Of a DNA stretch of 45,763 bases, positions 35,701 to 45,758 are shown one piece after another. The DNA lies in NCBI GenBank assembly GCA_009778545.1, contig WRJO01000002.1, positions 1 through 45,763 of the forward strand, in the 5' to 3' direction. The notes beneath the pieces are model-generated. The model ran no database searches. It was given only the letters and a program-made list of their open reading frames with translations, and was not told where the DNA came from. This stretch comes from Treponema sp. GTDB lineage: Bacteria > Spirochaetota > Spirochaetia > Treponematales > Breznakiellaceae. The position numbers and the translations under genes are program-made. Within the stretch, counting starts at the first letter, position 1, and the number at the start of each line of letters is the position of its first letter.

Positions 35701-35736
35701 GAGGTGACAGGCACTGGTGCTTTACCTTAATACCTC
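35701..35736 (-). terminator. possible terminator at the end of the DnaE2-like gene
   Basis: On the minus strand GAGGT and ACCTC enclose a smaller GCACCAGTGC hairpin, and CTTTTT follows. The stem overlaps the stop codon. Confidence 0.3.
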
Positions 35737-38700
35737 TATTCGATTGATTTCAACAGACAGCGCCCCTTCATCAACGGCAACAGAACCGTAAATCAACAAA
35801 GGCTGCTGGTCAAAAAGAAGCCTTGAATACCGGTCATACACTTGCGGAAAAATGACTGTTTCATACAGGGCAGTTTCATCTTCAAGACTTAAAAAACTCA
35901 TAGTCAGGCCGTCCTTGGTCCATACGTCTTTTTGCGTAACAGGCCAGCCGACCATTTTAACAGACCGCCCGACATATTTGCCGATATGCACAGCCTTTAC
36001 CCGATACTTAACCGCCAACACTTCATTTTTCCATAAAACAAGCGGGTGGTTATTCCGTAAAAATCCCAACGCACCATATTCTTCCCACAAGTTATTAGCA
36101 GTTTTGATTGTCTTTTTTTCCTTCGCTATCTTATTGGCGTTTGCTGTGTATGTCGGCATAATCTCCGAATCAAACAATTCTCCATTAGTCATTCCACATT
36201 TGACATTTTTCATTTCCAATAGCCGTCGTGCCTGTAACGGCCTCGAAAGGCCCTCCGCTATACTGTCAAAAACTCCCGCAGGGCAAAGGGCAATAATGTC
36301 ATCACGGTTAAGCCGAACCCTTCGTGAAAAATTATCAAGAGAAGAAAAATCACCGCTACGCTCCCGCTCTGCTATAATTGCCTCCGCTCCCGCAACAGAC
36401 AACCCCTTTATTGCCATAAACCCAATGACAACCGTCCCCCGAAAAGCGCTCTTTGCATTTGGCGGCATGGAGGCCGCTGTTTTGGTCAATTCCGCAGGAA
36501 TTGACACTGCTTTAGCTGGAGTTTGCAAAGCAAACTCCGGTGGCATAAATCCGCATGAATGCGGATTTATGCCATAATACTTCCATCGGGAAATATTTAT
36601 ATCCGGCCCTGCCGTAAAAAGCCGCATACGCCGTGCTTCCGCAATATACGCATGGGGACGGTAATAGCCCCCCTGATTGCTTAATACCGCCGCCATGAAT
36701 TCGGCTGGGTGGTGAACCCGCAAATAGGCTGATTGAAAAGACACCATAGCGTAAGACGCTGAATGAGGCTTACAGAAACTATAGCCGTCAAAACTCAACA
36801 TCATTTCCCATATCTTCTGTATTGTTTCCTCCTGTACCCCGTTTTTTCGGCAACCCGCAAAAAACTGATTTTTATGCACAGCCAGTTTTTGACCGCCCAT
36901 TTTTTTTGCAATCACTTTCCGCAGTTTGTCGGCATCCGCCTCGTTAAACCCCGCCAGAGCCACCGCCGTTTTTGAAACGTCCTCCTGATAGCAGAGTATT
37001 CCGTAACTTTCACTTAAAATATCTTCTAACAGCGGGTGCAACGGTTCCCACTTGCCCCCCTTGAGCCGCCGTACATATTCGGAAATAAACTTATTCGCCG
37101 CAGGGCGTATTATGCTGGAATGGATTACTATGTGTTCAAAATCGCCTCTATTGGTCTTTTTCTGCAATTGACGCATGGCGGGACTTTCAATATAAAAAAC
37201 CCCGATACTGTCACCCTTTGCCAACGCCTCAATCGTAGCCTTATCGTCAATCGCCCTCTCAAGCCGCCCCTGTATATGATAATCTTCATTAATCATTCGA
37301 CATTCGTCATTAGTAATTTGCTCCACAGCGTCCCTGATAACCGCCAGCGACCTGTTGCCAAGCAAATCTATTTTTACAAATCCCGCTGCTTCGGTTCCCT
37401 CTTTTTCCCAAACTAACAACGGATACCCCTCTGCCGATTTTTCAACAGGCACATAACGGCAAATTGGCCCCGGCGTAATAACTACCCCCCCGCAGTGCAT
37501 ACCCAACCCGCGGGGCAATCCCTCTATTTTCGCTGCAATCTCAAATATTTCTTTCCATAACGGATCATCAAATATTTCTGATTTTTTATTTGTTATTTGT
37601 AATTTCCTTTCAATAGCCGTTATTTCAGCGTCCCCGAAACCATAAGCCTTCGCCGTTTCCCTCAGTGCCGACCTGTACCGGAACATATTATGATTGGCAA
37701 CTCTCGCGCAATGGTCAGAACCAAACCTTTCAATAACCATTTTTATTAGTTCGTCCCTTTCGTCCCATGCAAAATCAATGTCCAAATCAGGCGGGTCAGG
37801 CCGTGCGGGGTTTAGAAACCGTTCAAAATACAGGTTATGCCGCAGCGGGTCTACATTGGTTATGCCCAAACCGTAAGATACAATGGAAGCCGCACCGGAA
37901 CCCCTGCCGCAAGTCCGTTGGCTGCCAAAGGAAGCCTTAGCCATTTTTACAATATCGTCTATGGTCAGGAAATATGATGAAAACCCTTTCTCTTTAATTA
38001 TGCCCAATTCATAATCTATGCGGCCAATTTCTCTTTCTCCCAATTCCCCATACCGCATAGCATTACCGTTATAAACACGTTCCTTTAGCTCCTTAAATAT
38101 TTCCTCTTTATTATTTATTATTTGATATTTATTATTTGTTTCGTATCCCGGAAAAATCCAGCCGTCAAACAAATCATCCAAAGTGCAAATACCCGCTATT
38201 GCTTCGGTTCCCTTGACCGCCTCCGGCCATTGCACCAGCCGGCGGTGAAGTTCTTTTGAAGAACGCAGTACCCTTTCTTTATCAGCGGTATCTTCATTTT
38301 TCAAATTACCCACGGTTTTCAGAAGCCCGATTGCCCTTAAAACACGATGAACCTGTAAATCTAACGACTGCTCCGCAGACGACTGTTCCAAAAATAGAGC
38401 GTCATCTAAAAAGGCAAGCGGAATACCAAGCCTGCGGCCAGGGCTTACAGCCCTAAAAGAAGCAGGTGTTACCGCCCCATACAAATTTTTTACCCGCCCA
38501 AAAAGAAATTCCAAAACCCCTTCATCATCGGAAGCCAGCACCAGCCCCCCTGAGTTTTCCCGCAATAAGGGCAATGGGTTAAAATGCTCTTTGTCTTTAT
38601 TCCGCAATGTAAGCAATTCACACAATCGTGAAAATCCCGCCCTATTCTCCACAAAACAGTAAACTTTTTTTTCACCACTCTGCATTCCCCATTTCCCATT

Positions 38701-38925
38701 CCACATTCCACATTCGTCATTCCACATTAATACAGTTCCGATAACCGGCCTAATACCTCTCTCTTTTGCCGCCTCAAGAATGGTATGCACCCCGTACAGA
38801 TTATTCAAATCGCAAACCGAAACCGTTGTAACTCCGAAAGAAGCCGCACGATCTAAAAGTTTTTCAGGCATATGCACTCCGTACAGGAGAGAATAAGCCG
38901 ATACCAGCCCAAGCCTAATGTGCAT
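35722..38925 (-). CDS. DnaE2-like (ImuC-type) error-prone polymerase alpha subunit
   Basis: The 1067-residue C-family polymerase keeps the active site: D380-L-D382-I-D384-F in PDLDIDF and D520 in VKIDLLGNRS. The N-terminal PHP domain is degenerate: the HxH motif is replaced by LGLVSAYS and the TDHD-like motif by CDLNNLYG, so it cannot bind metals. The thumb/finger parts (KPHSASYAMVSFQSAYL) and an OB-like end (MSFLSLEDETALYETVIFP) are present. Length and architecture fit DnaE2/ImuC better than replicative DnaE. It has at least six in-frame short repeats. AAAGGAAC precedes the start. It follows the ImuB-like gene by 42 bases. Confidence 0.85.
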   Translation of the reverse strand: MHIRLGLVSAYSLLYGVHMPEKLLDRAASFGVTTVSVCDLNNLYGVHTILEAAKERGIRPVIGTVLMWNDECGMWNGKWGMQSGEKKVYCFVENRAGFSRLCELLTLRNKDKEHFNPLPLLRENSGGLVLASDDEGVLEFLFGRVKNLYGAVTPASFRAVSPGRRLGIPLAFLDDALFLEQSSAEQSLDLQVHRVLRAIGLLKTVGNLKNEDTADKERVLRSSKELHRRLVQWPEAVKGTEAIAGICTLDDLFDGWIFPGYETNNKYQIINNKEEIFKELKERVYNGNAMRYGELGEREIGRIDYELGIIKEKGFSSYFLTIDDIVKMAKASFGSQRTCGRGSGAASIVSYGLGITNVDPLRHNLYFERFLNPARPDPPDLDIDFAWDERDELIKMVIERFGSDHCARVANHNMFRYRSALRETAKAYGFGDAEITAIERKLQITNKKSEIFDDPLWKEIFEIAAKIEGLPRGLGMHCGGVVITPGPICRYVPVEKSAEGYPLLVWEKEGTEAAGFVKIDLLGNRSLAVIRDAVEQITNDECRMINEDYHIQGRLERAIDDKATIEALAKGDSIGVFYIESPAMRQLQKKTNRGDFEHIVIHSSIIRPAANKFISEYVRRLKGGKWEPLHPLLEDILSESYGILCYQEDVSKTAVALAGFNEADADKLRKVIAKKMGGQKLAVHKNQFFAGCRKNGVQEETIQKIWEMMLSFDGYSFCKPHSASYAMVSFQSAYLRVHHPAEFMAAVLSNQGGYYRPHAYIAEARRMRLFTAGPDINISRWKYYGINPHSCGFMPPEFALQTPAKAVSIPAELTKTAASMPPNAKSAFRGTVVIGFMAIKGLSVAGAEAIIAERERSGDFSSLDNFSRRVRLNRDDIIALCPAGVFDSIAEGLSRPLQARRLLEMKNVKCGMTNGELFDSEIMPTYTANANKIAKEKKTIKTANNLWEEYGALGFLRNNHPLVLWKNEVLAVKYRVKAVHIGKYVGRSVKMVGWPVTQKDVWTKDGLTMSFLSLEDETALYETVIFPQVYDRYSRLLFDQQPLLIYGSVAVDEGALSVEINRIEVLR
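36184..36217. repeat. in-frame ATTC-type simple repeat inside the polymerase gene (one of five)
   Basis: Degenerate units of CATTCCACATT type encode KNVKCGMTNG. Similar in-frame tracts lie at 37288-37324 (NDECRMINED), 37573-37604 (ITNKKSEIF), 38103-38142 (NNKYQIINNKEE) and 38681-38729 (NDECGMWNGKWGMQ). They look like inserted surface loops and are absent from normal DnaE proteins. Confidence 0.6.
36508..36572. repeat. in-gene palindromic element P1 (double hairpin) in the polymerase gene
   Basis: TGCTTTAGCTGGAGTTTGC is followed by a first hairpin (GTTTGCAAAGCAAAC) and a second (ATAAATCCGC, ATGA, GCGGATTTAT). The reading frame stays open and encodes an extra loop (YGINPHSCGFMPPEFALQTP). The same module occurs at 38972-39041. 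Confidence 0.8.
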
Positions 38926-38967
38926 TCTATGTTCCTTTCTGCTTAAGGCGGCAGGATGCCGCTGTAT

Positions 38968-40179
38968 CTATTGCTTTAGCTGGAGTTTTGCCATAGGCGA
39001 AACTCCAATGCTTAAAATCGGCATGGATGCCGATTTTAAGCAAAGCCCCCTTGTAATCTTTCCCGCTCCGTAACGGTTTTGTATTTTGTCTACTGCTTCC
39101 TGCAATCTTTGTTTTCTAATATCCGTTTCCGGTTCAAACAAATCAACTTCAAATCCCAAAGGAGCAAGACCCTCAAGGCATAAACCGATAGACCTAATTC
39201 TTATCCGGCGTACCGCCGCCTTGTAGTAAATGCGTTCTGCTGTTGCCGCAATATCACGATCAAAAACCAAAGGCCGTTTCAGTTTTTCCCGCCCCTCCGC
39301 TTTCACGCCGTCAGCATAGACAACAGCCAGATTAACGACGCTTGCCCCTAATTTATCCCGCCGCATTGCAAGGCCGCCAAATTCCGCCAACGCTTCTATC
39401 GCCCCCCGAACAGCCGTATCGTCAATGACATTTTCATCAAAATCGGCCTGCCCGGTTATTCGCCTTTCCCTGCTTCGTTCTTCTATTCTGCTTCCGTCTA
39501 TCCCCTGAGCCATATTCCGCAGAACCGCCCCATGCTTGCCGAACAGGGCAAGGGCTTCCGTTACCGTTAATGCCGCAACTTCCCCAATTTCCCGAATACC
39601 CGTTATCGCCGCAGTTTTTAAAAGTTTCTGCCCCATGCCCGGCAATATCCGTATGTCCTGATGGGACATAAATTCCGCTTCGGTTCCGTTGTGCACCTGA
39701 ATTAAGCCAGTCGGACGTATCGTTCTTGTCGCCACTTTCGAGACCAATTTGTTGGACGCAACCGCCGCCGCAGGGCGTATCTGTGTATGGTCTATTATTT
39801 CTCGCAGTATACGGCTTGAGCAATCGCAAGGCGGCCCGAACAGTCCCGTAGTTCCGGTAATATCCAAATACACATTTCCCGCCCCGTCGTTTTCCCATAA
39901 CGGAGCGTACAGAGCCGCCACCCGCTCAAGTTCCCTGTTCATTGTTTCGTAAGCCGGAACATCGGGCGGGAGTACCGTCAAATCTTTTATTCTCCGTTCC
40001 GCAACAGCAAGAGCCATGCCCGGCGTAATCCCTTCCCTAATCGCTTCCGGCGAGCAGTCCAGGGCAAGAGAACGCCCTCCGGTTGCCCCGGCAATCACAT
40101 AAGGCCGACCCCGCAGGGTTTTGTCTTTAGCCGCCGCCACCGCCGCCTTAAAGCCGACTACGTTCAAGTGAACAATCAT
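38968..40179 (-). CDS. ImuB-like Y-family polymerase homologue without catalytic acids
   Basis: The 403-residue protein has the Y-family fold: palm (IVHLNVVGFKAAVA), GRPYVIAG-like fingers, YLDITGTTGLFG, the helix-hairpin-helix thumb (ILPGMGQKLLKTAAITGIREIGEV), and a little-finger domain. DinB enzymes need Asp8 and Asp103-Glu104 (E. coli numbering); here they are Asn6, Gly and Asn. The xxYLDITGxxxLFG form is the ImuB type, a non-catalytic scaffold that brings DnaE2 to the clamp. The end (MPILSIGVSPMAKLQLKQ) comes from a palindromic repeat. An upstream TTG at 40209 could add ten residues. The DnaE2-like gene follows. Confidence 0.82.
   Translation of the reverse strand: MIVHLNVVGFKAAVAAAKDKTLRGRPYVIAGATGGRSLALDCSPEAIREGITPGMALAVAERRIKDLTVLPPDVPAYETMNRELERVAALYAPLWENDGAGNVYLDITGTTGLFGPPCDCSSRILREIIDHTQIRPAAAVASNKLVSKVATRTIRPTGLIQVHNGTEAEFMSHQDIRILPGMGQKLLKTAAITGIREIGEVAALTVTEALALFGKHGAVLRNMAQGIDGSRIEERSRERRITGQADFDENVIDDTAVRGAIEALAEFGGLAMRRDKLGASVVNLAVVYADGVKAEGREKLKRPLVFDRDIAATAERIYYKAAVRRIRIRSIGLCLEGLAPLGFEVDLFEPETDIRKQRLQEAVDKIQNRYGAGKITRGLCLKSASMPILSIGVSPMAKLQLKQ
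38972..39041. repeat. in-gene palindromic element P2 at the 3' end of the ImuB-like gene
   Basis: TGCTTTAGCTGGAGTTTTGC, a hairpin (GAGTTTtGCCATAGGCgAAACTC with imperfect arms), then TTAAAATCGGCATGGATGCC and its complement arm. The first 16 bases and the two-hairpin layout match P1, although the second hairpin differs in sequence. Confidence 0.75.
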
Positions 40180-40180
40180 G

Positions 40181-40226
40181 TTAATTAATAAATAAATAAT
40201 AAATAACAAATAAAAAAATGCCTCCC
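40181..40226. repeat. AT-rich repeat between GGGAGG and the ImuB-like start
   Basis: Degenerate units of AATAAATAA and AACAAATA type lie between an otherwise good ribosome binding site (GGGAGG, 40221-40226 on the minus strand) and ATG 40179. The tract reads through in frame from TTG 40209. Confidence 0.6.
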
Positions 40227-40227
40227 T

Positions 40228-41010
40228 TCATTTGTTATTTAACATTTGCCCTAGTCTAATCGCGTTTCGTGCGGCCTTGCCGAGCGGGTGATTATTAAAG
40301 TAAACCAAAATCCGCTTCGCCTGTTCGGTAATCCGTTTTATCCTGTCCGCCCAAGCCTCAACTTCCTTATCCGTATACAAATAGTCGTATCGAGCATGGT
40401 CATCTTTTCCCCACCACGCTTCCTTATTCCGGCCGTGGAGCCGTATATAGGCCAGCGGAGCCGTTACAACGTCCATAGTAGGAGGCAGTTTCGGCAAATC
40501 CGGCATATCGAGGGACACCAGCGGCACGTTACGGCTTTTCATACCGTCGATTACCTTTCCGGTGTACCAGTCCGATTTTCTGAATTCCACCGCCGCCGGA
40601 ACGTCCTTAAAAACTTTCAAAAGTCTGTCCAAATACCGCCTGTTTTCGTCCTCGTACTTGAATGAGTAGGGAAACTGGAACAGAACAGCGTCCAGCCGCC
40701 CCGCCCCAAGCATAGGTTCTATCGCCGTAAGGTAGGTCTTCGCTTCCCCTTCCCACAGGCTGGGATTTATCTCATGGGTAAGGGTTTTATGGGCTTTTAT
40801 CGAAAATCGGAGGTTTTGCCCCCCGTCAACCAGCATTTTCGCCAAATTTTCAGGCTTTGGCATGGTATAGTAGGAAAAATTGAGTTCCACCGTGGGAAAC
40901 AGCCCCGCATAACAGGACAGATAGTCGCCTGGTTTTGTCCCCTCCGGGTACACCGTTCCCACCCATTCATGGTAGGAATACCCGCTTGTTCCAATTAAAA
41001 TTTCCGCCAT
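40228..41010 (-). CDS. DUF72 (YecE-type) TIM-barrel protein
   Basis: The 260-residue protein has the DUF72 order: IGTSGYSYHEWVGTVYP at the start, VELNFSYYTMPKPENL, RFSIKAHKTLTHE, DAVLFQFPYSF, AAVEFRKSDWYTG, LAYIRLHGRNKEAWWG and VYFNNHPLGKAARNA at the end. It is a TIM barrel of unknown biochemical role, often linked to iron-sulfur or nucleic-acid genes. ATG 41010 follows AGAGGT. It sits first in the minus-strand cassette with the ImuB-like and DnaE2-like genes and is divergent from the S24 repressor, so it shares the repressor's control region. Confidence 0.9.
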   Translation of the reverse strand: MAEILIGTSGYSYHEWVGTVYPEGTKPGDYLSCYAGLFPTVELNFSYYTMPKPENLAKMLVDGGQNLRFSIKAHKTLTHEINPSLWEGEAKTYLTAIEPMLGAGRLDAVLFQFPYSFKYEDENRRYLDRLLKVFKDVPAAVEFRKSDWYTGKVIDGMKSRNVPLVSLDMPDLPKLPPTMDVVTAPLAYIRLHGRNKEAWWGKDDHARYDYLYTDKEVEAWADRIKRITEQAKRILVYFNNHPLGKAARNAIRLGQMLNNK

Positions 41011-41036
41011 AATAACCTCTATACATAATCGGCCTG

Positions 41037-41082
41037 TTGCAATATAATAACATAGTGTATATAAATTATAAACAAGTGTATA
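41037..41082 (+). promoter_or_regulatory. promoter with tandem AGTGTATA operator candidates
   Basis: TTGCAA (41037-41042), 17 bases, TATAAA (41060-41065). Two direct repeats of AGTGTATA lie at 41054-41061 and 41075-41082, 21 bases apart (two helical turns), one on the -10 and one near the expected transcription start. The region also controls the divergent DUF72 gene. These are candidate binding sites of the neighbouring repressor. Confidence 0.5.
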
Positions 41083-41092
41083 GGGGTTGTCA

Positions 41093-41719
41093 ATGAAAAA
41101 CGAGGCGGAAAGGTACAAATTTATCCTGGAAAAGTCCGGCCTATCCAAAACCGATTTTGCCGAAAGCATAGGGATTTCCCGCTCCCACAGCCACCACATA
41201 GAAAGAGGCATGCAAAAACCCTCCAGGGAAGTGCTGGAGCGGCTTTCCACCATCTACAATGTAAACCTTAATTGGCTGATATACGGCAAAGGGCAGTCCG
41301 GCCTGGAAGCCGAAACCGTAGAAATTGAACTGTATAATCAGGAAGCCGCCGCAGGGTATGGGCGCGAAATAGAAGATTACATCGAAAAACAGTATATCCC
41401 CGTTCTCCATGACTTTTTGCGACCCCACAACCCCCAAAACCTGAAAGCCGTCTATGTTTCGGGGGACAGCATGATTGGAGAGCATATCAATAATGGAGAT
41501 ATTGTCATTTTTAACATCAAACAGACCGAGGGAAACGGAATATATGTGATCTCCGTTGATAATACACTGTTAGTTAAGCGGGTTGATTTTAATCCCGCCA
41601 ACAAGACCATCGAATTGAAAAGCGCAAACCCAAATTACGAACCCCGCCGCTTTTCGGGTGATGAACTGAACGACATACGGATTGAAGGGCGGGTAGTGGC
41701 ATGGTATCACAGGGTGTGA
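41093..41719 (+). CDS. self-cleaving HTH-S24 repressor (LexA/CI-like)
   Basis: The 208-residue protein has an N-terminal XRE-type helix-turn-helix (about 4-62, LSKTDFAESIGISRSHSHHI) and a C-terminal S24 peptidase domain. Cleavage site A87-G88 in EAAAGYG, catalytic S126 in SGDSMIG and K162 in LLVKRV are all present at LexA-like spacing, so RecA-stimulated autocleavage is likely. The DNA-binding half is the phage-CI/XRE type, not the winged helix of classic LexA. Start ATG 41093 with AGGGGT upstream. It is divergent from the mutagenesis cassette and probably represses it and itself. Confidence 0.88.
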   Translation: MKNEAERYKFILEKSGLSKTDFAESIGISRSHSHHIERGMQKPSREVLERLSTIYNVNLNWLIYGKGQSGLEAETVEIELYNQEAAAGYGREIEDYIEKQYIPVLHDFLRPHNPQNLKAVYVSGDSMIGEHINNGDIVIFNIKQTEGNGIYVISVDNTLLVKRVDFNPANKTIELKSANPNYEPRRFSGDELNDIRIEGRVVAWYHRV

Positions 41720-41762: not shown

Positions 41763-44201
41763 GTGGCAAATTATAGCAGCATACAGAAGGAAGAAACTTT
41801 TAAAGCGGCAGTGTTCCGTGATTTTTTCAACGCCTCAAAATATGCCTATGAACCGAATATTGGAAATATCGACTTTATTGTAACAGAAGCAAAAACCTTA
41901 AAAGACAATATCTGGAAACGCCACTACCTATGGGCAGAAAGCAAAAAAGGCATCGCCGATATTTCCGCAATGCTCACACAGTTAGTTTTTACTATCAAAA
42001 AAACCTATGAAAAAGGTGAACACTTACCCCCGCCTTACATTGCCTGTTTTGATACCGCCAAAATAGCGTTTGTTCCTTTTCACGACATATTGCCGATTTT
42101 CAATGACAATGACGTAAACTGGAATGCCACCGCAAGCAATCATACAACTTCAGATTTTCTTAAGACCAAAAAGAAAATTGAAAAACTGTCAAAGAAGAAC
42201 ATTATCATTTTTGACTTCGATACGGATGAAAAAGAAATTGTCGATTTTATAAATAACAATCTGGTAGCCGGAAATATAACCGCCAAATTTCAGATAAATA
42301 AAAACAACTTCGTAATTATTTACAGCAAATGGCTTGAAAAGGTAAAAAAGAGTATTGCCATTGATTGGTCTCTGGTAAAAAAATCAGGTATCATAGACGG
42401 TGATTTTTTCCTTGCCGATTTGCTCTCCAAAGACAATTACACTCTAAAAGATAAACTCTTTGTTATTTTAATGAATAACCAGTATAAGTTTGATAAAAAA
42501 TTCGATAATGCGGGTTTTTCTTTGTACAAAGAAGTCGGATTTAATGACAATCAAAAAGCCCATAAGGAATTTTGGGATAGATATGAACGCCCCCCGCTGG
42601 AAGAATATTGGGATTATATTATAAACCGTAGGGATTTACTTGTACCGCAGGATATTAGGGAGCGTAAAGGTTCATTTTTTACCCCGAAACAATGGGTAGA
42701 ACTATCGCAAAAATATATCGCCGATACCTTAGGTGAAAACTGGCAGGATGAATACTATGTTTGGGATTGTGCTGCTGGAACTGGAAATCTTTTAGCCGGA
42801 CTAACTGAAAAATATAATATTTTTGCATCAACCCTTGATAAAGCCGATGTTGATGTAATGAAAGACCGCATAAAACATGGGGCAAATTTACTTGAAGACC
42901 ATGTTTTTCAATTCGATTTTTTGAACGATGATTTTACAAAATTGCCAAAAGGTTTGCATGATATTATTAAAAGTGAAAAGAAGCGAAAAAAACTTATTAT
43001 TTATATTAATCCCCCTTATGCGGAAGCGACATCCTCAAAAACTATATCTAGTACTGATTCAAAACATAAAAAAAATGTTGCCGTTAGTAAAATTAAAGAA
43101 AAATATGAAGTTTTCCTGAATCAAGCATCCAAAGAACTATTTGTTCAATTTTTATTTAGAATATATAAAGAACTAAATGGTTGTTATATCGGTAATTTCT
43201 CAAAAGTTAAAATATTACAAGGCAATCATTATAAAGAATTCAGAAAACATTTTCTTGCTAACCTAGAAAAAATGTTCATTGTCCCATCTCAAACTTTTGA
43301 TAATGTCAAAGGCAAATTTCCAATAGGTTTTTTTATCTGGAACACTCAAATTGAATCTCCATTTAAAAGCATTAAAGCAGATATATTTGATCATGACTCT
43401 ACACATATTGGTCAAAAAAATATGTTTGCCCCACAAAGTTTAAATCTCAAAGATTGGTTAAGACAATTTAATATTCAAAATAACCCGATTGCGTATTTAG
43501 TTAGAGGAAGTGGAGATGTACAAAATAACAATGTTGTTTTTATAACGCTCCAACCCTCTGAAAGTGTACTAAAAGCATCAAATGCAAGTAAAATATCGGG
43601 AGAAAACCTCATTCAAAATGCTATATTTCTAAGTGTAAGAAAAGTTATTAAACAAACATGGATAAACGATAGAGATCAATATTTATTTCCAAATTCTAAA
43701 TGGGAAAACGACGATGTTTTTAAATCTAATTGCCTAACTTTTGCATTATTTGATCAAAGTAATATTGTAAAATCAATAGAAGGAATAAATCATTGGATAC
43801 CTTACACTGCACAAGAAGTAAACGCAAAGACGAATTTTGAGAGTAGTTTTATGAATGATTTTATCAATGGCAAGATTTCAGATACATTTTCAGACGATTT
43901 ATTTTCAGAAAAAAAGAAAACAAAAAAGAAAGCGTTAGTATTTTCTAATGAAGCTAAATCAGTATTTAAAGCTGGTAAGAAATTATGGAAATACTATCAC
44001 TCGCAACCCTCTGCAAATGTAAATGCAAGCTTGTATGATATTAGAGAATTTTTTCAAGGTAGAGATGATAGCGGCAAGATGAATAACAAGAGTGGTGATG
44101 ATACTTACAATGACTTGATAAAGGAATTACGTCAGGCTTTATCATTATTAGCAGAGAAAATTACACCAAAAGTATTTGAATATGGGTTTTTAATGGAATA
44201 A
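41763..44201 (+). CDS. N6-adenine DNA methyltransferase with possible N-terminal nuclease domain
   Basis: The 812-residue protein has SAM-binding motif I WDCAAGTGNLLAG starting near residue 333 and the adenine-target motif N416-P-P-Y419. The N-terminal part contains an ID...WAESKKGIAD pattern (about residues 37-62) that resembles a PD-(D/E)xK nuclease core, suggesting a type IIG-like fusion that cuts and methylates. The C-terminal 300 residues could be target recognition. The start is GTG 41763 with only weak ribosome binding sequence. It is much more AT-rich than the core genes and is followed by AbiH after one base, so it is part of a transferred defence island. Confidence 0.8.
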   Translation: MANYSSIQKEETFKAAVFRDFFNASKYAYEPNIGNIDFIVTEAKTLKDNIWKRHYLWAESKKGIADISAMLTQLVFTIKKTYEKGEHLPPPYIACFDTAKIAFVPFHDILPIFNDNDVNWNATASNHTTSDFLKTKKKIEKLSKKNIIIFDFDTDEKEIVDFINNNLVAGNITAKFQINKNNFVIIYSKWLEKVKKSIAIDWSLVKKSGIIDGDFFLADLLSKDNYTLKDKLFVILMNNQYKFDKKFDNAGFSLYKEVGFNDNQKAHKEFWDRYERPPLEEYWDYIINRRDLLVPQDIRERKGSFFTPKQWVELSQKYIADTLGENWQDEYYVWDCAAGTGNLLAGLTEKYNIFASTLDKADVDVMKDRIKHGANLLEDHVFQFDFLNDDFTKLPKGLHDIIKSEKKRKKLIIYINPPYAEATSSKTISSTDSKHKKNVAVSKIKEKYEVFLNQASKELFVQFLFRIYKELNGCYIGNFSKVKILQGNHYKEFRKHFLANLEKMFIVPSQTFDNVKGKFPIGFFIWNTQIESPFKSIKADIFDHDSTHIGQKNMFAPQSLNLKDWLRQFNIQNNPIAYLVRGSGDVQNNNVVFITLQPSESVLKASNASKISGENLIQNAIFLSVRKVIKQTWINDRDQYLFPNSKWENDDVFKSNCLTFALFDQSNIVKSIEGINHWIPYTAQEVNAKTNFESSFMNDFINGKISDTFSDDLFSEKKKTKKKALVFSNEAKSVFKAGKKLWKYYHSQPSANVNASLYDIREFFQGRDDSGKMNNKSGDDTYNDLIKELRQALSLLAEKITPKVFEYGFLME

Positions 44202-44202
44202 T

Positions 44203-45330
44203 ATGAACAGAATAATACTTATCGGAAATGGTTTCGATTTAGCGCATGGCTATAAAACAAGTTATAAGCATTTTATTGATGATTTCTGGGAGAGTAAAGC
44301 TAATAAATTTATAACAGCTTATTTGAATGAGGAAAAAGAATTAAAAACAAAAGGTACTTGTAATATTTATTTTCAACCTGATGATGAAGTTATATCTTTA
44401 TTTGAACTCAAGTACACTCCTAAGGAAATTCCAAAGGAAATATTAGAAAAATATGGTCAAGAAAAAATGAATTCTTTTTTAATGTTTATTGGAGCAAATG
44501 CAAATAGGAATTATAAATTCACTAATCAATTTCTTTTTCAAATTACAAGTAATTTATCACTAAATAAATGGGTTGATATAGAAATAGAATATTATAAAGC
44601 ATTAATTGAATGTTCTACAGGAGAAAGAAGTATTGTTGAACTTAATAAAGAATTTATATTAATTAAAAAAGAGTTGGAGAAATATTTAATTTCAGAAATA
44701 TCAAGAAAAAGACCTCCATTACAAAGCATAAATAATTTGATTGATTCATTTATTATTAACAACAGTATTAATAATGGAATACAAGCAACATCAAGCGATA
44801 AAACTTTATTTTTAAGTTTTAATTATACAAATACAGAGCAACAATATGTTGATGAATTAAAAAATGGAACAAAAAAAGATGTTAAATGTATTCACATTCA
44901 TGGAGAAATAAATAAATCTGATAATCCAATTATTTTTGGTTATGATGATAATGCAGATGAAAAGCAAAAATCACTATTAGAAAAAGGCAATGATTTTCTC
45001 CAAAACATAAAATCATATTATTATAATGATAACATTACACAGCTACAATCATTTATAAATTCTGAAAAATATGAAATTCTTATTATGGGGCATTCATGCG
45101 GAATTTCCGATAGAACATTATTAAAACTACTATTTGAACATGAAAACTGTATGAATATTAAAATTTATTACTATGTTGATAACAATGGAAACGATGATTA
45201 TACCGAAAAGAAAATGAATATTACTCGTATTTTAGGAGAAATGTCTATAAATACAAAAATAGTACCAAAGTCCAGATGTGAACCTTTGTCTGATATATCA
45301 AGATTACTGCCTAATCCAGATGGCACATAG
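44203..45330 (+). CDS. AbiH-family abortive infection protein
   Basis: The 375-residue protein begins RIILIGNGFDLAHGYKTSYK, the AbiH glycine-rich signature (GNGFDxAHGxxTxYxDF), and contains SFNYTNTEQ (the FNYTxT motif), IHIHGEI and a late IMGHSCGISD, all family markers. AbiH proteins protect lactococci and other bacteria against phage by an unknown mechanism, perhaps NAD or nucleotide related. It starts two bases after the methyltransferase stop, so the two are co-transcribed. Very AT-rich. Confidence 0.9.
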   Translation: MNRIILIGNGFDLAHGYKTSYKHFIDDFWESKANKFITAYLNEEKELKTKGTCNIYFQPDDEVISLFELKYTPKEIPKEILEKYGQEKMNSFLMFIGANANRNYKFTNQFLFQITSNLSLNKWVDIEIEYYKALIECSTGERSIVELNKEFILIKKELEKYLISEISRKRPPLQSINNLIDSFIINNSINNGIQATSSDKTLFLSFNYTNTEQQYVDELKNGTKKDVKCIHIHGEINKSDNPIIFGYDDNADEKQKSLLEKGNDFLQNIKSYYYNDNITQLQSFINSEKYEILIMGHSCGISDRTLLKLLFEHENCMNIKIYYYVDNNGNDDYTEKKMNITRILGEMSINTKIVPKSRCEPLSDISRLLPNPDGT

Positions 45331-45373
45331 AAACAAATGGTTTTATTTTCATATAATATTAGGAGAATAAAAT

Positions 45374-45433
45374 ATGGAATGTTTGAATGTAACCAATTTC
45401 AACGGTATTCAATCAGAGGTTGCCAATGGCTAA
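45374..45433 (+). CDS. 19-residue leader peptide overlapping the DUF1016 start
   Basis: ATG 45374 is preceded by AGGAG at eight bases and the frame (MECLNVTNFNGIQSEVANG) stops at TAA 45431-45433, eight bases inside the DUF1016 gene, whose own ATG 45426 has no ribosome binding site. This arrangement makes translation of the downstream gene depend on reading the short frame. No homology is recognised. Confidence 0.45.
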   Translation: MECLNVTNFNGIQSEVANG

Positions 45434-45758
45434 AAAAGTAACCACTGCTATTACAGTAACCAGGCAAGATAAAATATTCTTTGCCGAAGTTGCGGGCATT
45501 TTGCATAAAGCCAGAGAAACTGCCTATAAAACAGTTAATACCGTAATGATTCAGACCAATTGGCAAATCGGCAGGCGGATTGTTGAGTATGAACAAAAAG
45601 GCAAGTCCCGTGCCGAATATGGCGATTATCTCATTGTCAATCTATCCCGCTATTTAACTGATATTCTGGGAACAGGTTTTTCCGAAGCAAATCTAAAAAA
45701 CTTCAGGCAATTTTTCCTGAGCTTCCCAAATGGAATTGAATTCGCTAGTGTTCTGTAA
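45426..45758 (+). CDS. DUF1016 (YhcG-type) protein, truncated to the N-terminal domain
   Basis: The 110-residue frame matches the N-terminal helical domain of DUF1016 proteins (INWQIGRRIVE-like TNWQIGRRIVEYEQKGKSRA, YGDYLIVNLSRYL, GFSEANLKNFRQFF). Family members continue for more than 200 residues, with an ELSWSHY segment and a PDDEXK nuclease. Here the frame ends at SVL and TAA, five bases before the window edge. It is thus either a truncated gene, a frameshift remnant or a natural short form; sequence beyond the edge is needed. It belongs to the defence island. Confidence 0.7.
   Translation: MAKKVTTAITVTRQDKIFFAEVAGILHKARETAYKTVNTVMIQTNWQIGRRIVEYEQKGKSRAEYGDYLIVNLSRYLTDILGTGFSEANLKNFRQFFLSFPNGIEFASVL

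Follow-up and report, generated by a model that had tools for sequence, protein, structure and literature searches.

Probable replacement of LexA by a CI-type S24 repressor at a DUF72-iPolY-dnaE2 operon in a Treponema genome

The stretch of DNA considered here, the window, is 45,763 nucleotides long and constitutes one whole contig (G000:C2; GenBank WRJO01000002.1) of a Treponema sp. genome of 1.99 Mb which is 68% complete. Within it, one operon encodes a DUF72 protein, an inactive Y-family polymerase (iPolY) and a DnaE2-like polymerase, and a gene for a CI-type repressor with an S24 peptidase domain is divergent from it (Table 1). All four genes are real, as judged from their open reading frames and Pfam matches, and lie where the initial annotation had placed them. 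The spacing in the operon is 48 bp between DUF72 and iPolY and 42 bp between iPolY and DnaE. The iPolY reading frame opens further upstream with a TTG at 40209, and an alternative TTG start for the S24 gene is found at 41087.

Table 1. Genes and proposed regulatory sites at the locus, in window coordinates
Feature	Position	Strand	Basis
DnaE2B-like error-prone DNA polymerase III alpha homologue, 1067 aa	35722..38925	-	Pfam DNA_pol3_alpha/finger
Predicted inactive Y-family polymerase (iPolY, ImuB-like), 403 aa	38968..40179	-	Pfam IMS/IMS_C
DUF72 TIM-barrel protein, 260 aa, first operon gene	40228..41010	-	PF01904 match, TIM-barrel fold
XRE/CI-type HTH + S24 peptidase repressor, divergent from operon	41093..41719	+	Pfam HTH_3 + Peptidase_S24
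Proposed S24 operator, TGTATATAAATTATAAACA	41056..41074		Inverted repeat at similar offset in S24 promoters
Proposed operon -35, TTGACA, overlapping the S24 start codon	41088..41093	-	Read from sequence
Proposed operon -10, TATAAT, inside the operator, 17 bp from the -35	41065..41070	-	Read from sequence
Proposed S24 -35, TATACA	41020..41025	+	Read from sequence
Proposed S24 -10, TATAAT, 17 bp from its -35	41043..41048	+	Read from sequence
Putative remnant of a LexA-like box, degenerate, CTATACACTTGTTTAT	41068..41083	-	Two mismatches; score 10.5, p 0.004

Among the loci of 18 relatives, DUF72 stands directly 5′ of iPolY in every case and dnaE2 follows iPolY in 15. Two of the three remaining contigs stop at that point, and in the third genome, G021 (C11; L278:4971-7898), dnaE2 lies away from the DUF72-iPolY pair. 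The arrangement is not due to chance because the order is kept across these loci, and DUF72 is a regular member of the cassette rather than a bystander. The gene order lexA-DUF72-iPolY-dnaE2 is also common in Desulfobacterota. The named loci used in the comparison are the best 80 of 192 confirmed matches, and several of their contigs also belong to the other genomes searched. Among the matches listed, those named ones that come nearest to the cassette are metagenome-assembled ‘Treponema sp.’, with isolate codes suggestive of termite and cockroach guts.

None of the three catalytic acids of DinB is kept in the Y-family protein, and it is predicted to be catalytically dead, in agreement with its initial description as ImuB-like. 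Asn6 replaces an aspartate (HLN against HVD in DinB) and a Gly-Asn pair (GN) occupies the position of the Asp-Glu pair (DE). Asn6 and Gly101 are invariant in 17 aligned iPolY sequences, namely that of the window and those of 16 relatives, all 18 but G010 and G052. The protein keeps a clamp-like motif, DLFEPE, which is followed by a RecA-NT-like stretch and then by only about 25 residues, without a long C-terminal extension. In the available text of PMC11791113 and PMC12926913, a clamp motif followed by a RecA-NT stretch is the arrangement of RecA-binding Y-family proteins. The similarity of the window iPolY tail to RecA is modest (p 0.02 against the RecA of G021, 0.07 against that of G015 and 0.12 against that of G056); the pattern is kept within the genus and is weaker in distant cassettes.

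The cassette DnaE keeps the catalytic motifs PDLDIDF and VKIDLLG, and the start of its PHP domain is degenerate (RLGLVS, compared with HLHVHS in the DnaE1 of the same genome), in agreement with the first description of a DnaE2-like enzyme with an intact catalytic aspartate and a decayed PHP domain. A second, separate DnaE of this genome groups with DnaE1; the cassette polymerase, initially taken to be distinct from the replicative enzyme, falls outside that group and is not the only copy. In a tree of 32 DnaE sequences, the 15 cassette proteins fall into a single clade (100/99). This clade unites with two PolY-linked DnaE of Bacteroidota (100/98), and DnaE1 and four canonical DnaE2 lie separately. 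A single clade uniting the cassette proteins with canonical DnaE2 (DnaE2A) was rejected (p-AU 0.005, with the four canonical references). For this tree an earlier set of 36 rows was cut to 28 by dropping one long-branch row (the second DnaE of G039) and seven others, four references were added, and DUF72 is absent from the loci of two of the 15 cassette rows. By the nomenclature of PMC12926913, the cassette polymerase looks like a DnaE2B accompanied by an inactive PolY, the equation of the two Bacteroidota proteins with DnaE2B resting on the available part of that paper. Sets of DnaE1 and DnaE2 in spirochaetes are already in print, as the accessible text of PMC3919608 records.

Two further features of the coding sequences deserve mention. 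Degenerate repeats of the ATTCNNCATT kind, with a period of about 7 bp, occur within the dnaE2 frame (36177-36214, 37281-37318, 38099-38136 and 38670-38742), and another lies at the end of DUF72 (40227-40247). In addition, the DnaE protein carries an insert of 42 residues (789-830) which is absent from nearly all of the six relatives compared.

The operon holds DUF72, iPolY and dnaE2 only, with no ImuA. At the cassettes of 19 genomes, no match to the ImuA model NF033429 was found; below its cut-off it produced one match in each of 16 of them, 15 on recA and one, in G050, unassigned. This search is a weak test, since none of 14 controls exceeded the cut-off of the model either. According to the available text of PMC12926913, the DnaE2B-iPolY module is thought to use RecA instead of ImuA. 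The initial annotation had described the locus as a lexA-imu-dnaE2-like mutasome. The dead Y-family protein and the non-replicative DnaE of that picture are retained, whereas ImuA is missing from the operon and the DnaE is not a canonical DnaE2; the cassette comes nearer to iPolY-DnaE2B.

The S24 protein has the residues expected for self-cleavage, Ala87-Gly88, Ser126 and Lys162 in alignment with LexA and UmuD, and both their intactness and the divergent orientation of the gene had been correctly noted. It is not a canonical LexA: an HTH_3 domain takes the place of LexA_DNA_bind, and the protein reaches 41 bits with TIGR00498, for which the cut-off is 110.95. The premise that treponemes lack a classic LexA does not hold. 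The window genome encodes a canonical LexA (192 bits, over the family cut-off, with a LexA_DNA_bind domain), and LexA exceeded the cut-off in 54 of the 59 genomes searched, this one included. The expected co-occurrence of all four genes is found only in part: the three operon genes occur together in relatives, but an S24 gene adjoins the cassette in only four of 19 loci (the window, G003, G005 and G015), and its outer neighbours differ among these four cases.

Cassette promoters of relatives without an adjacent S24 gene share a palindromic box adjoining TTGACA. Sites fitting the pattern derived from them are also present at mraZ and at a radical-SAM gene (with helix-hairpin-helix domains) in the window genome and others, and near -111 of recA in eight of 18 genomes. 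A LexA-box matrix was built from 12 non-cassette sites of these three kinds (recA, radical-SAM, mraZ). With this matrix, a box at p ≤ 0.003 was found in 13 of 15 S24-less cassette promoters (scores 12.6-22.7), and 12 of these 13 have it at -25 or -28 relative to the start of DUF72; the two that failed are G038 (p 0.055) and G046 (p 0.033). Six of eight further named loci passed as well (L163, L172, L175, L177, L183 and L186), L162 and L176 failing, and no LexA-like box was detected before the displaced dnaE2 of G021 (p 0.84). A score of at least 12 is reached in none of the four S24-adjacent cassettes (Fisher p 0.0039 against 13 of 15): a degenerate box is left in the window, a weak site lies at -24 in G003 (p 0.015), and G005 (p 0.53) and G015 (p 0.21) have no LexA-like site. 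These distributions suggest that LexA probably runs the operon in most relatives and would keep other targets in the window genome. Divergent LexA motifs of spirochaetes have been published, as the accessible part of PMC3108266 indicates.

The match near the division genes mraZ-mraW lies at G000:C13:11088-11103 (L129), with corresponding sites in G015 (L153) and G021 (L112). It possibly links the SOS response to cell division.

The S24 promoters share a different element. An inverted repeat is found about 28 bp before the S24 start, at a similar offset in four of five S24 promoters, and is weak in the fifth. The repeats read GTATAG-N6-CTATAC in G003 and G005 and GTGTAG-N5-CTATAC in G015, while GTATAT-N5-ATA(A/T)AC is found both in the window and in the promoter of an S24 relative in G020. 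Their joint score was reached by none of 2000 shuffles. Furthermore, the presumed recognition helix matches the operator type in six S24 proteins: the helix SRSH.. (window, G020) goes with GTATAT half-sites, and ..GYQI or NYQI (G003, G005, G015 and G064) with GTATAG, or with GTGTAG in one arm. When 17 S24-less cassette promoters were scanned for the operator, allowing up to two mismatches, two weak matches appeared (G014, one mismatch with a gap of 7; G036, two mismatches). In the window, the repeat covers both the proposed -10 of the operon and the proposed start of S24 transcription.

A case in trans adds to this picture. Neither a LexA-like box (p 0.40) nor an adjacent S24 gene accompanies the L162 cassette, yet its promoter contains GTATAGAATGCCTATAC, a perfect GTATAG-N5-CTATAC repeat. 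An S24 operator without box or adjacent repressor leads one to expect an S24 gene elsewhere in that genome, an expectation formed only once the output of the promoter scan had been seen. Among the nine genomes searched of ten, a full-length S24 relative (54%) occurs only in the genome of L162, G064, on another contig and beside a DNA methylase gene; of the other eight, G070 has a weak partial match (33%) and seven have none. The promoter of the G064 gene contains GTATAGATTGCCTATAC, the 17-mer of L162 with one change.

In a tree of iPolY and DUF72, S24-type and LexA-type cassettes are mixed in one clade (eight rows, 100/100). A grouping of the S24-type cassettes to the exclusion of the others was rejected (p-AU 0.0038), therefore at least two regulator switches, in either direction, took place in this clade. 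Because adjacent S24 genes and LexA-like boxes are anticorrelated, S24 operators are shared and the trans case agrees, S24 probably replaced LexA at this operon.

It is very improbable, in our estimation, that the operon is a decaying or damage-independent module whose regulators merely reflect the shuffling of a defence island. In Spirochaetia bacterium MS502-68 (L176:1173-4918), transposase-like genes interrupt the cassette, and the S24 gene still nearby and divergent encodes Arg-Gly where others have Ala-Gly. Such a broken copy fits decay, as does the failure to see a cassette-type iPolY in 24 of 35 same-genus relatives, many of whose genomes are incomplete. However, open reading frames and invariant motifs are kept across Spirochaetota and Desulfobacterota loci, and the regulator sites arise more than once.

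Several points weigh against a takeover by S24. Taken singly, the repeats are not significant in the window (p 0.15) or in G015 (p 0.68), the window repeat differs from GTATAG-N5-CTATAC by three mismatches, and the offset range of the joint shuffle test was fixed after the repeats had been seen. The threshold for an ‘intact’ LexA-like box was likewise chosen with the scores in view, and the matrix is not fully independent, since the pattern used to find its training sites had originally been derived from cassette promoters. Genome-wide, matches to this pattern hardly exceed a reversed-pattern control in most of 20 genomes (6 and 6 against 4 and 4 in the window genome), and the recA box near -111 is absent in G005, G015 and eight others, that of G003 standing at about -208. 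Residual LexA control is possible because the degenerate window box and the weak G003 site remain. S24 relatives away from any cassette occur in G020 and G028, among restriction/abi-type genes, and the G020 cassette keeps a strong LexA-like box. The S24 gene of the window is co-directional with a methyltransferase-like gene and abiH, which it could serve instead. Finally, the inducer is assumed, because a search of the 68%-complete genome yielded no recA.

Some of these points would also be expected if LexA still controlled the operon and S24 were a neighbour which regulates itself and, here, the adjacent defence-type genes. The degenerate LexA-like box persists in the window promoter, S24 is closely spaced with the two co-directional genes, and AbiH is matched in both the window and G020, where the S24 relative again sits in defence-type surroundings. 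We nevertheless regard such continued LexA control as unlikely: the inverted repeat overlies the proposed -10 of the operon, LexA-like sites are missing in G005 and G015 and weak in G003, the outer neighbours of S24 vary among the cassette-adjacent cases, and the G064 cassette combines an S24 operator served in trans with the lack of a LexA-like box.

The genes in question may be described as follows. Positions 41763-45758, 3′ of S24 and co-directional with it, encode three proteins: one is methyltransferase-like and bears an NPPY motif, one is AbiH, and one, of the DUF1016 family, is present only with its start. The first of these had no match in Pfam or PADLOC, and a 68%-identical gene is divergent from the S24-less cassette of G010. 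In G020 (C42; L149), the S24 relative (69%) is not cassette-adjacent and leads a two-gene unit (406 and 341 aa) which adjoins an AbiH gene and type I restriction-like genes; the unit had no PADLOC match.

The overlap of the degenerate LexA-like box with the inverted repeat, together with the presence of LexA and the p value of this box, raises the thought of dual control, in which both proteins would bind overlapping sites and create a two-key or graded switch in the window genome, full replacement being confined to other S24 cassettes. This seems improbable to us, as the window box scores below all 13 positive S24-less cassettes, one half-site is degraded, and no LexA-like box is kept in G005, G015 or L162.

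We favor, with a probability of about two in three, a damage-inducible complex of the iPolY-DnaE2B(-RecA) type that includes DUF72 and over which S24 has taken control from LexA. DnaE2B would carry out error-prone synthesis, and the dead iPolY would tether it to the sliding clamp through DLFEPE and to RecA through the RecA-NT-like tail; given this double tether, no ImuA would be needed. A role for DUF72 in recognizing or processing the lesion or the stalled end is probable. Repression in most relatives would come from LexA, bound at the box beside the -10. In the window lineage, an S24 dimer would bind the inverted repeat over the operon -10 and over its own transcript start, repressing both divergent promoters. 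Upon DNA damage, RecA filaments would trigger cleavage of S24 at Ala87-Gly88 by the Ser126/Lys162 dyad, the dimer would dissociate after cleavage, and both the operon and the repressor gene would be induced at the same time.

If this is correct, a bacterium can give its mutagenic polymerase a damage switch of its own, with a separate threshold, and leave other SOS genes to LexA. One genus would then hold natural before-and-after pairs, with a LexA box or an S24 operator, for studies of SOS rewiring. Direct tests of a DnaE2-type mutasome that lacks ImuA become feasible, and its near-constant DUF72 partner offers a testable role for a common protein family of unknown function. As far as our searches go, the probable takeover of a single operon in a genome that retains LexA is new: among the matches listed, no paper dealt with a CI-type SOS repressor in spirochaetes, and none with LexA and ImuB in Treponema. 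Within the same bounds, DUF72 as a near-constant partner of such cassettes is new, no paper on a DUF72-iPolY-DnaE2 cassette being among the matches listed.

DUF72 also appears in another polymerase setting. In two same-genus genomes without the cassette, G012 (L275:5389-7811) and G022 (L276:2338-4862), an operon encodes a S24/UmuD-like protein, UmuC (with DUF4113) and DUF72, with a LexA-like box just upstream; the LexA-box matrix finds boxes before both UmuD genes. A third same-genus genome without the cassette, G031, has DUF72 alone, and the scan for a LexA-like box gave p 0.88. A wider proposal, which we advance as speculation and consider more likely to fail than to hold, is that translesion machines of bacteria (iPolY-DnaE2B, and UmuDC in these two genomes) have in DUF72 an unrecognized constant subunit or a partner that processes lesions, and that CI-type self-cleaving repressors repeatedly displace LexA at this operon alone, LexA ruling elsewhere, so that induced mutagenesis is uncoupled from the rest of SOS.

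Several known systems can be set beside the cassette. With the canonical lexA-imuA-imuB-dnaE2 cassette it shares an operon joining a dead Y-family protein to a DnaE2, and in the Desulfobacterota versions of DUF72-iPolY-dnaE2, lexA is often found upstream. In contrast to the canonical form, there is no ImuA in the operon, DUF72 occupying its position, no long ImuB-type C-terminal extension, and the DnaE belongs to a separate clade. Closer still is the putative DnaE2B-iPolY-RecA mutasome of PMC12926913. Going by the available text of that paper, the common traits are a DnaE2 outside DnaE2A, a linked inactive PolY and the lack of an operon ImuA, and the Bacteroidota PolY-linked DnaE with which the window protein groups are of the kind it calls DnaE2B. 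Regulation is not covered in that text. DUF72, the near-constant first gene here, is not named in the main text of the paper.

Among the papers mentioning DUF72, going by their listed or accessible text, a link to a translesion polymerase was found only in PMC11791011, where DUF72 is enriched beside polB2; that system is of the B family and the enrichment is given as ‘to some degree’. DdiA of Myxococcus xanthus, as described in the available part of PMC12288472, is also an XRE-family regulator acting on dnaE2 beside LexA. It differs in having 120 codons and no evidence of cleavage, and in activating dnaE2, directly or indirectly.

The nearest parallel for the regulator is the non-canonical LexA of Bacteroidetes (PMC8565304, cited from the part available). 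There, CI-type S24 repressors run the SOS response, including imuA-imuB-dnaE2 and dinB-dnaE operons, and no canonical LexA was found. Control by a CI-type repressor, proposed for this operon at the outset, is probable here, but such an SOS repressor is not new as a kind. The two share a plan of CI-type HTH and S24 domains with self-cleavage residues, a palindromic operator with an N5-type spacer and, as proposed here, their own promoter and translesion polymerase operons as targets; a Chryseobacterium plasmid shows the same divergent S24-operon plan. They differ in reach: the Bacteroidetes repressor governs SOS broadly, in a phylum that lacks canonical LexA, whereas in the window it would serve, as far as seen, one operon beside a canonical LexA.

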